Source of the DNA: an uncultured Bacilli bacterium
Lineage (GTDB): Bacteria; Bacillota_I; Bacilli_A; RF39; UBA660
NCBI GenBank assembly: GCA_947588925.1
Contig: CANQAT010000003.1
Location: 1 to 45,795, forward strand
Length of the DNA: 45,795 nt
Direction: 5' to 3'
A model generated the notes under the pieces. The model searched no databases and was not told the origin of the DNA. It saw nothing but the letters and a program-made list of their open reading frames with translations. Position numbers and translations under genes: made by a program. Positions 5,878 through 9,409 of the stretch are shown in pieces; the first letter of the stretch is position 1; every line of letters starts with the position of its first letter.

Positions 5878-5906
5878 TTGACAGTTAAGTTTAGTGCTGA
5901 TAAAAT
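5878..5906 (+). promoter_or_regulatory. Sigma-A type promoter of lectin-prepilin gene
   Basis: TTGACA (5878-5883), 17-nt spacer, TAAAAT (5901-5906). The ORF-track TTG start coincides with the -35. Confidence 0.8.
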
Positions 5907-5937: not shown

Positions 5938-7521
5938 ATGAGAAATAAAGGTTTTACACTTATAGAATTATTAGCAGTAATAGTAATACTTGCTATTATC
6001 GCACTAATAGCTGTACCAATAATATTAAATATAATTGGACAGGCTAAAGGAGAAGCAATAGAAAGGAGTAAAGAGTTATATCTTGAAGCTGTAAAAGAAG
6101 CAGTAGCAAGAAAAAACTTAACAGAAGAGTTTAATCCTACTACATGTACAGTTAAATCTGATGGTAATTTAAACTGTAAATCAGGTGATAAAACAGTTGA
6201 TTTAACAGTAGAATCAAATGGAACAAGACCAACAGGTGGAACAGTTACACTAGAAGATGGAGTAGTAAAAAGCGAAACATTAGTGTTTGGTGGAGGTACT
6301 AGTACAACAGAAGAATATGTAGATGAGAGTGGCGCAAACAAACCAGAACTAGTAGATGGATTAATTCCAGTTATCTATGATGAAACATCAAAACAGTGGA
6401 AGATAGCAGACCCAACAAAGGATGAATGGTATAACTATGATAAAAAACAATGGGCAAATGCAGTTATACTAAGTGATAAAGGAAAAAATAAAAAAGCAGG
6501 AGAAACATTAACACTTCCAACTTCAACTACTGACGCAAGTAATTCAGATGTAAGAGCAATGTTTGTATGGATACCAAGATATGAATATAAAATGCCTGAA
6601 AATGTAACTACAAGTAATCCAGCTTTGATAGAGATAAAATTTATAAGTAAAGATGTATCAAAAGAAACAGATGGATACATTTTACATCCGGGATTCACAT
6701 TTGGGGATGAAACTCTATCAGGAATATGGGTAGGAAAGTTTGAAACAAGTGCTAAAGCAGATAGTACTTGCTATAGTTCTGCTTCTAAAAACAATTGTAA
6801 TAATACTACTCAAGATCCATATATACTACCAAATGTATATTCGCTTAGATATCAAACTGTAAGCAATCAATTTGAAACAGCAAAAAAATTTAATCAGAAT
6901 TTAAATAATGCTTTAGATAGCCATATGATGAAGAATAGTGAATGGGGAGCAGTGGCTTACTTATCACATTCAAAATATGGAAAAAAAGATGAGGTATATA
7001 TAAACAATTGTAAAAATTATATAACAGGAATAGGAGCAGATAGTGTAAGCGCTTCATTAACTGATACTACATGCACAAATGATACCAATAAATATAATGG
7101 AACAAGTGGAGTAAATGCATCAACAACAGGAAACGTATATGGAATATATGATATGAGTGGTGGTGCACGGGAATATGTAATGGGATATTTAACAACTGCG
7201 ACTTCATCTGGTACTTGGGGTTCAACTTCAAGTAGTAATTATGCAGGATTTACGACTGAACCTGAAAATAAATATTTCGATTCATATACAACAACGACTA
7301 CAACGGATGAAGAATATAAAGGGCATGCTTTAGGAGAAACTTCAGGTTGGTATGGTGATACCGCTAGCTTTGTTTTTTCGAGTTATCCGTGGTTCGAACG
7401 CGGGGGCTACTGTGACTCTGCGTCGCGTGCGGGCGTGTTCAACTTCAACTTCGACGATGGCAATAGTAACAGCCTCAGTTCGTTCCGCGTCGTCTTAGCC
7501 CCAACTCCTTATGTTGAATAA
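5938..7521 (+). CDS. Prepilin N-terminal domain fused to FGE/C-type-lectin-like domain; candidate DGR target protein
   Basis: ATG 5938 (after AGGAGG) starts MRNKGFTLIELLAVIVILAIIALIAVPIILNII. C-terminus GNVYGIYDMSGGAREYVMGY and WFERGGYCDSASRAGVFNFNFDDGNSNSLSSFRVVL. Confidence 0.9.
   Translation: MRNKGFTLIELLAVIVILAIIALIAVPIILNIIGQAKGEAIERSKELYLEAVKEAVARKNLTEEFNPTTCTVKSDGNLNCKSGDKTVDLTVESNGTRPTGGTVTLEDGVVKSETLVFGGGTSTTEEYVDESGANKPELVDGLIPVIYDETSKQWKIADPTKDEWYNYDKKQWANAVILSDKGKNKKAGETLTLPTSTTDASNSDVRAMFVWIPRYEYKMPENVTTSNPALIEIKFISKDVSKETDGYILHPGFTFGDETLSGIWVGKFETSAKADSTCYSSASKNNCNNTTQDPYILPNVYSLRYQTVSNQFETAKKFNQNLNNALDSHMMKNSEWGAVAYLSHSKYGKKDEVYINNCKNYITGIGADSVSASLTDTTCTNDTNKYNGTSGVNASTTGNVYGIYDMSGGAREYVMGYLTTATSSGTWGSTSSSNYAGFTTEPENKYFDSYTTTTTTDEEYKGHALGETSGWYGDTASFVFSSYPWFERGGYCDSASRAGVFNFNFDDGNSNSLSSFRVVLAPTPYVE
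7378..7500 (+). other. Candidate DGR variable region (VR) at 3' end of the lectin-prepilin gene
   Basis: About 70/123 G+C by hand count against very AT-rich flanks, with abrupt change in codon usage (CGC, GCG, CCG, GTC, GGC). Encodes the RGG...AGVFN...FRVVL pattern typical of CLec-fold DGR VRs. Confidence 0.75.
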
Positions 7522-7529
7522 AAGATGAT

Positions 7530-7556
7530 AAAGATGATTAATCCATCATCTTTTTT
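7530..7556 (+). terminator. Rho-independent terminator
   Basis: AAAGATGAT-TAATCC-ATCATCTTT plus T-run. Confidence 0.85.
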
Positions 7557-7738
7557 GTATATATTCAACATATACGTACAAAATATATAAAGAAATAAAT
7601 AAAACATATTGCAAAAATTTAATTTGCAGGATATAATATTTTTATAAAAAATGTATAGTGTTTACACTCACAACACGTTTTAAATAAGCATTTAAAGGTA
7701 ACATTTTCGTTAAATCAAATTTTTGTTTAAACTCCCCC

Positions 7739-7766
7739 TTGACAGGGGGGGGGGGGGGGGTATGAT
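7739..7766 (+). promoter_or_regulatory. Candidate phase-variable promoter with homopolymeric G spacer
   Basis: TTGACA (7739-7744), G16 (7745-7760), TATGAT (7761-7766). Confidence 0.85.
7745..7760 (+). repeat. Poly-G mononucleotide tract (16 G)
   Basis: Directly visible; exceptional in an AT-rich genome. Confidence 0.95.
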
Positions 7767-7803
7767 AGAATAGGAGTATAAGTATAAGATTGGGAGGAAT
7801 GAT

Positions 7804-9354
7804 ATGAAAAATAAAGGTTTTACACTTATAGAATTATTGGCAGTAATAGTAATACTTGCTATTATTGCATTAATAGCAGTACCAATAATATTAAATATAA
7901 TTGGACAGGCTAAAGAAAAATCAAGATTAGCAAGTGTTGAACTTATAAGCAGTACAGCAGAATTGTATTATGCAAATAGTATACTAGTTGATGATAGCAA
8001 TTTAACTGGTAATTTATATGATAAGGTTGTTAACAACATGAATGGAGAAATGCCTAGTAATGGGCAGGTGTATGTAGATAAAAATGGTAATATAGCTTTT
8101 GCACTCAGTTATGATAATTATTGCTATACTAAAGAGTTTTCAAGTCCTGAAATAAATAAAGAAAGAACAGATAATTGTGTTGCTCCAATAAATTATTTAG
8201 CAGTCTCACAAAATACAAGTGAAACAGCTACATTTTTAAATGGAAATATACCAAAAAATAAAATAGAAGCAATAGAATTTGTAACCAATATAGATGTCCC
8301 TGAAAATGCTTTAGGAAGATTTGACGCTTCAGAAAAGCAAAATGGTAGTATTCTTGCATGGTATTTTGATAATGATAACAATGGATTATATGAACTTTAT
8401 ATAGGTGAAGAGGGTGGTGTTAAAGCAAATCCTAATTCTGGAATGTTATTTTTAAACTTTAAGTCATTAAAAAAATTAAATTTAGAGTATTTAGATACAA
8501 GTAATTCCACTAATATTATGGGAATGTTTAGGTATTGTAGCAGTCTAACGGAACTTGATTTATCTAGTCTTAATACAAAAAATGTAGTTAATATGATGTC
8601 GTTATTTTCCTTTAGCAGTAATTTGGAAAGAATAATAGGGTTGGAAAACCTTAATACAAGCAAAGTGACAGACGTAGCTGGAATGTTTCAGGGATGTAGC
8701 AGTCTAATAGAGCTTGATGTAAGTCACTTTGATACAAGAAATGTATCAACTATGTTAACTATGTTTTCTAGTTGTACTAATTTAAAGAAAATAAAAGGTT
8801 TAGAAAAATTTGATACAAGTAAAGTAAACAACATGAGACAAATGTTTGTTGGATGTAGCAGTTTAACAAGTCTTGATGTAAGTCATTTTGATACATCTAA
8901 TGTAACAAATATAGAAGGAATGTTTAGTGATTGTAGTAGCCTAACCGAACTAGATTTGAGTAATTTTAATACAAGTAATGTAATTGATATGACGCTTTTG
9001 TTTAACAAATGTAGAAGTTTAGAACATTTGAATTTGGGTAAATTTGATAATGATAGAATCACAAGTGTGTATTGTATGTTTAACGAATGTAATAGTTTAA
9101 AGGAATTGGATTTAAGCAATTTTAATACGAGTAATTTAATTGATATGTCGTATATGTTTGCGGCTTGTAGTAGTTTAACAGAACTAAATTTAACTAATTT
9201 TGATACATCAAGTGTAACAAACATGACAGGTATGTTTGAAGATTGTACAGAATTAACTTCAATATTAGTTTCTGATAAATGGAAAGAAAATAGTACTCTT
9301 GACAAAACGGATATGTTTAATAACTGTGGGACTGAAGAACTTACAGTTATATAA
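7804..9354 (+). CDS. Prepilin N-terminal domain fused to BspA/DUF285-type repeats (surface adhesin candidate)
   Basis: MKNKGFTLIELLAVIVILAIIALIAVPIILNII followed by repeated 'MFxxCSSLTELDLSxFNTSNVxxM' units. Confidence 0.9.
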   Translation: MKNKGFTLIELLAVIVILAIIALIAVPIILNIIGQAKEKSRLASVELISSTAELYYANSILVDDSNLTGNLYDKVVNNMNGEMPSNGQVYVDKNGNIAFALSYDNYCYTKEFSSPEINKERTDNCVAPINYLAVSQNTSETATFLNGNIPKNKIEAIEFVTNIDVPENALGRFDASEKQNGSILAWYFDNDNNGLYELYIGEEGGVKANPNSGMLFLNFKSLKKLNLEYLDTSNSTNIMGMFRYCSSLTELDLSSLNTKNVVNMMSLFSFSSNLERIIGLENLNTSKVTDVAGMFQGCSSLIELDVSHFDTRNVSTMLTMFSSCTNLKKIKGLEKFDTSKVNNMRQMFVGCSSLTSLDVSHFDTSNVTNIEGMFSDCSSLTELDLSNFNTSNVIDMTLLFNKCRSLEHLNLGKFDNDRITSVYCMFNECNSLKELDLSNFNTSNLIDMSYMFAACSSLTELNLTNFDTSSVTNMTGMFEDCTELTSILVSDKWKENSTLDKTDMFNNCGTEELTVI

Positions 9355-9377
9355 GAACTCTAAATTAGTTATTAAAG

Positions 9378-9409
9378 AAAAAACTTTATCTAAAATGATA
9401 AGTTTTTTT
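9378..9409 (+). terminator. Rho-independent terminator
   Basis: AAAAAACTTTATC...GATAAGTTTTTTT. Confidence 0.75.

Follow-up and report, generated by a model that had tools for sequence, protein, structure and literature searches.

A poly-G promoter spacer before a prepilin-BspA gene of an uncultured Bacilli bacterium: very probably one of about 20 slippage-tuned switches

Known homopolymer switches and the prepilin locus

Switching by promoter homopolymers is already known (Neisseria, Treponema, mycoplasmas), and what is new in the system described here is its host and its scale. In Neisseria, the porA promoter is highly active with 11 G, 2.2-fold lower with 10 G and 13-fold lower with 9 G (PMC3639595), and a homopolymer spacer between -35 and -10 also sets expression from the fetA promoter (PMC5320596). 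Both resemble the present locus in that poly-G or poly-C separates the -35 from the -10 of a surface-protein promoter, but they are single genes of a Gram-negative pathogen, whereas here a whole paralogous family of a Bacilli genome is involved, the tracts are longer (11–20) and the -10 is TG-extended. Treponema pallidum is similar in two respects: poly-G links the -35 to the -10 of the tp0126 promoter, where 17 bp is the optimal distance, and several paralogous tpr genes each have their own poly-G (PMC7864442). The tpr tracts, however, reach into or beyond the -10 instead of filling the spacer, and the protein families differ. In Mycoplasma hyorhinis, every member of the vlp family has its own promoter homopolymer and switches independently (PMC10502178). 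The likeness is that of a surface-protein family with one promoter homopolymer per gene, although the vlp system combines poly-A with lipoproteins and the present one poly-G with prepilins. The vlp genes are clustered, while the prepilin genes here are spread over many contigs. In the many BspA-like surface genes of Candidatus Mycoplasma girerdii, metagenomic reads show tandem repeats of varying length (PMC5476646), but those are dinucleotide repeats acting by frameshift and not promoter spacers. In the gut bacterium Bifidobacterium breve, G-tract slippage controls sortase-pilus surface appendages; the tracts lie within coding sequence, and spacer tracts are merely mentioned (PMC9187656). A literature search, with most subscription journals outside its reach, found no description of such tracts in the lineage studied here.

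The window, i.e. the whole 45,795-nt stretch analysed, is contig C3 of an incomplete 1.28 Mb assembly in 80 contigs. At 7739–7766 on the forward strand it reads TTGACA, exactly 16 G and then TATGAT, as the initial annotation had stated, with the -35 box at 7739–7744 and the G16 tract, the proposed hypermutable spacer, at 7745–7760. The window is 27.6% GC, and G16 is its sole G/C run of at least 6. No match to TTGACA-G16-TATGAT appeared in 100 dinucleotide shuffles, and a first-order Markov model with the composition of the window predicts ~1e-6 G/C runs of at least 16 in 1.28 Mb; chance or low complexity was rejected as the origin of the tract. CCCCC stands immediately 5' of the -35 box (7734–7738), and a ribosome-binding site, GGGAGG, is found at 7792–7797, all on the forward strand.

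The open reading frame behind this promoter (7804–9354, forward strand) encodes a 516-aa prepilin with leucine-rich repeats, recognized by a prepilin signal (PF07963) and a match to PF03382 (DUF285/BspA-type leucine-rich repeats; E 6e-56), and this combination suggests a surface-exposed product. Terminator-like hairpins followed by T runs are predicted from folding on the same strand 3' of the upstream gene (7522–7557) and 3' of the switched gene (9377–9409), the former missed by a consensus terminator scan whose criteria demand more G-C pairs. Because they flank both sides, they suggest that the prepilin-BspA gene is transcribed alone from the G16 promoter.

The upstream gene (5938–7521, forward strand; PF07963, weak PF03781) is a paralogous prepilin. 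Its non-tract promoter, TTGACA-17-TAAAAT, was recovered by inspection and by promoter scan at 5878–5906 (forward strand), in agreement with the earlier description. The 3' end of this gene (7395–7521) is strikingly GC-rich relative to the window and encodes a C-type-lectin-like C-terminus ending in ...SFRVVLAP; related ...SFRVVLAS endings are present in prepilin operons on contigs C29, C32 and C37. The window also starts inside another prepilin gene (3–1637; GFTLVELLAVILILSF...), so that a conserved prepilin start coincides with the contig break.

Distribution and length of G tracts in the genome

All 18 runs of at least eight G in the genome are located at prepilin-like loci. Seventeen belong to TTGAC(A)-Gn promoters, each at a prepilin locus or at a contig end with matching flank; 13 of these are intact as far as the -10, and contig ends truncate the other four, which retain the upstream flank. 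The -35 box is TTGACA in 16 of the 17 and TTGAC followed by G in the other one, and the paralogous tracts range from G11 to G20. Four more contigs (C7, C9, C30 and C49) terminate at TTGAC or TTGACA plus a few G. The genome encodes about 49 prepilin-like N-termini, and several paralogous prepilin genes each own a separate tract, as in vlp-type families. The window promoter is one of about 20 near-copies, all before related prepilin genes, and very probably serves as one dial in an on/off switch made up of multiple genes. The remaining run, a G9, is found in the first codons of a prepilin gene (C25:201–340, L178; MKRTFVRTGGGHLEYRNGFTLIELL), where this in-frame coding tract probably mediates translational phase variation.

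Tract lengths, compared between paralogs and species as assembly consensus values that may be off by one or more, differ among promoters with near-identical flanks: C4 (G11) and C7/C71 (G18) are identical at 55/60 upstream and 59/60 downstream positions, C1 (G13) and C12/C36 (G19) at 56/60 downstream positions, and the number of G within such groups is 11, 13, 14 and 18, or 13, 19 and 19; G runs are troublesome to sequence (PMC9187656). That the tracts are sequencing or assembly artefacts is nonetheless extremely improbable. The end of contig C37, with G20 followed by A11, does have an artefact-like look, and a number of contigs terminate within a tract or close to one, but ten tract promoters are assembled on both sides with the whole prepilin start included, and the same design is found in separately assembled relatives.

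We propose that the promoter is of sigma-A (sigma-70) type and that G16 would serve as its hypermutable spacer, in which slipped-strand replication would add or remove G's. The distance between TTGACA and the extended -10 TGATAGAAT (7763–7771) would shift accordingly, and with it transcription of the prepilin-BspA gene. Within one prepilin family, about 20 promoters would switch independently, the window promoter among them, and each cell would consequently display its own combination. We hold it very likely that a slippage-tuned spacer switches this gene as one of about 20 such promoters. Its reading as a slippage-tuned surface-protein promoter goes back to the initial annotation and is favoured by the confinement of long G runs to prepilin loci, by the length differences between paralogs and by the recurrence of the design in relatives, all observed directly, as is the promoter anatomy; the -10 box and the spacer had to be revised. 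The slippage rate, the effect on transcription, surface display and adhesion are what we infer from these features.

The tract promoters are related by duplication and have conserved flanks, and the tracts might accordingly be relics or neutral expansions inherited with the duplicated promoter, with no regulatory role. This is very unlikely, given that long G runs occur nowhere else in this 27.6% GC genome, that the tract is placed differently in one relative (G010), that another prepilin gene of the same genome carries the in-frame coding tract on C25, and that the design recurs before pilin-like genes in an alphaproteobacterial MAG. The proposal that CCCCC upstream of the -35 box pairs with the tract holds up in part: CCCCC is kept in the sub-family formed by the C1, C12, C36 and window promoters, but the other tract promoters have ttcctc in its place. 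A CCCCC/GGGGG hairpin was rejected as a general mechanism, as CCCCC is not conserved beyond this one sub-family.

Position of the -10 element and predicted ON lengths

The window promoter has its homopolymer between a recognizable -35 and -10 in the order TTGACA-G16-TATGA-TAGAAT, and the same layout is seen in the 13 intact promoters of the genome. All intact tract promoters have a TG-extended -10 after the tract, in the form of TGATAGAAT, TGATAAAAT, TGAGATAAT or TGAGACAAT. In the alignment, TGA-TAGAAT of the window is matched by TGA-TAAAAT in the paralog at 5938, which has TGATAAAAT with a 17-bp spacer and a -10-to-ATG distance equal to that of the window promoter within one base, and TGATARAAT is conserved in the homologs. 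On the basis of this homology with tract and non-tract promoters, the -10 of the window promoter would be TAGAAT at 7766–7771, with a spacer of 21 bp at G16. The conserved element is thus probably the extended TGA-TAGAAT (7763–7771, forward strand), the best candidate in the alignment, and not TATGAT.

This changes which tract lengths are expected to be active. The initial annotation had taken TATGAT as a -10 with a near-optimal 16-bp spacer, which is probably wrong, and its optimum of ~17 G gives way to a predicted optimum of G12, because the conserved -10 lies 5 bp farther downstream. Of 11 non-tract TTGACA plus extended -10 sites in the genome sequence examined, 7 have a 17-bp spacer, a count that leaves out two interrupted-tract copies at 18 bp. 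Taking the 17-bp optimum from these promoters, G12 (perhaps G11–G13), with a spacer near 17 bp, should be the ON state, and G16 as assembled is probably OFF or only weakly active, except if TATGAT (16 bp) serves as the -10. A spacer of exactly 17 bp is present in the tract promoters of C1 (G13), C4 (G11) and C28 (G11), which would therefore be ON by their spacing; the remainder have 19–24 bp, and no complete tract promoter has a spacer below 17 bp.

TATGAT (7761–7766, forward strand; 5/6 to consensus) may serve as a second -10 in the window copy. It is possible, though we think it rather unlikely, that the switch is real but that this copy uses TATGAT, in which case G16 would be near-optimal at 16 bp and the assembled state ON, or that both -10 elements work, with two ON windows (~G12 and ~G17). 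TTGACA-16-TATGAT matches the consensus at 11/12 positions, and TATGAT arises from a T at 7761 that is peculiar to the window copy and missing from its homologs; what the homologs conserve, however, is TGATARAAT and not TATGAT, and the TTGACA promoters of this genome are usually paired with a TG-extended -10 at 17 bp.

The many spacers of 19–24 bp, far above the optimum, are also compatible with a tract that owes less of its effect to spacing than to its DNA structure (rigid or prone to G-quadruplexes) or to altered regulator binding, as suggested for opc and tprL, in whose promoters poly-G/C affects transcription without a simple spacing effect (PMC7864442). We consider this unlikely here, since the tract sits exactly between a well-formed -35 and -10, in G010 too although it is 4 bp farther from the -35 there, and since the spacers of complete tract promoters never fall below 17 bp and reach exactly that value in three cases. 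Tuning of the -35/-10 distance by tract length is the explanation that we retain.

Recurrence in relatives, additional layers of variation and meaning

Tract promoters recur within the genus. In G012 (MAG Lapin-028__bin7, uncultured Bacilli), 12 TTGACA-G9+ sites were detected, several of them before prepilins (G13, G13 and G16); contig ends interrupt many of these sites. G010 has G10 and G11 tracts in the spacers of prepilin promoters, four bases farther from TTGACA and again before TGG-TARAAT and a prepilin. Exact TTGACA-G9 is present in 5/16 genomes of the genus and 5/291 of the family, counts that are only a guide because some sites are other than such promoters and the pattern misses G010. 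Outside this lineage, the alphaproteobacterial MAG E02__bin238 has several TTGACA-G11–15 promoters (L057, L069, L070, L099, L119, L126 and L131), some of which precede pilin-like RSMIEMLGVL proteins; these poly-G spacers suggest convergence. TTGACA-G matches before prepilins in Gastranaerophilales and in a MAG named Fusobacterium NALB_7963_5 were rejected as spacer promoters; they read as a coding leader (L-T-G-G...), and these tracts are therefore probably translational. The Gastranaerophilales-type prepilins have G11–G16 in the coding leader, apparently a translational switch (L053–L055, L063, L071, L075 and others), and the NALB MAG, which has the same genes, may be mislabelled or mixed.

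Two further features were observed around the tract promoters. The genome has 20 CRAACRNRYGTTC sites, and 18 of them, a count with one site in the reversed pattern, end 3 nt before the TTGAC(A) of tract promoters that are intact, interrupted or cut by a contig end. A LexA/DinR-like box, CRAACAWATGTTC, stands at this distance from TTGACA in 18 promoters, on contigs C2, C4, C7, C9, C28–C30, C32, C37, C46, C49, C52, C53, C62, C64 and C71 (loci L270, L271, L276–L280 and L282–L292). A lexA gene is present (C33, L272), and a similar box adjoins the -35 of its own promoter. The window promoter has no LexA-like box, and the pattern suggests SOS control of most tract promoters with the window promoter excepted. 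The second feature concerns the prepilins behind the G19 promoters of C12 (L013:2808–3572) and C36 (L015:2868–3632), which are near-identical as far as the final ~115 bp of coding sequence; this end is hypervariable and has a hairpin with a GYAA loop behind it. It looks like the variable region of a DGR (diversity-generating retroelement), and no template repeat matching these tails was found in the incomplete 80-contig assembly. C66 encodes a DGR-like reverse transcriptase (L022:2216–3268, reverse strand) and has at its edge an A-rich stretch that resembles a template repeat, of which no second copy was found in the assembly. The window gene 5938–7521 was rejected as a target of this reverse transcriptase, as it has no template-repeat match, and the other reverse transcriptase (C11) is a group II intron maturase. 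Only tentatively, and with considerable doubt, could these features be joined into a layered system in which about 20 slippage-tuned prepilin promoters would mostly be under SOS control through a LexA box next to the -35, some products would have DGR-diversified tails, and DNA damage, slippage and targeted mutagenesis would jointly set the adhesin variants of each cell.

If the switch reading is true, a small-genome uncultured Bacilli lineage reserves all of its long G tracts to randomize a large, adhesin-like family with prepilin anchors. Phase variation at the level of transcription, familiar mainly from pathogens, would then extend to a lineage for which it has apparently not been described before, and a metagenomic test would be at hand, in which tract length per locus and per host would report changes in the surface repertoire over time.
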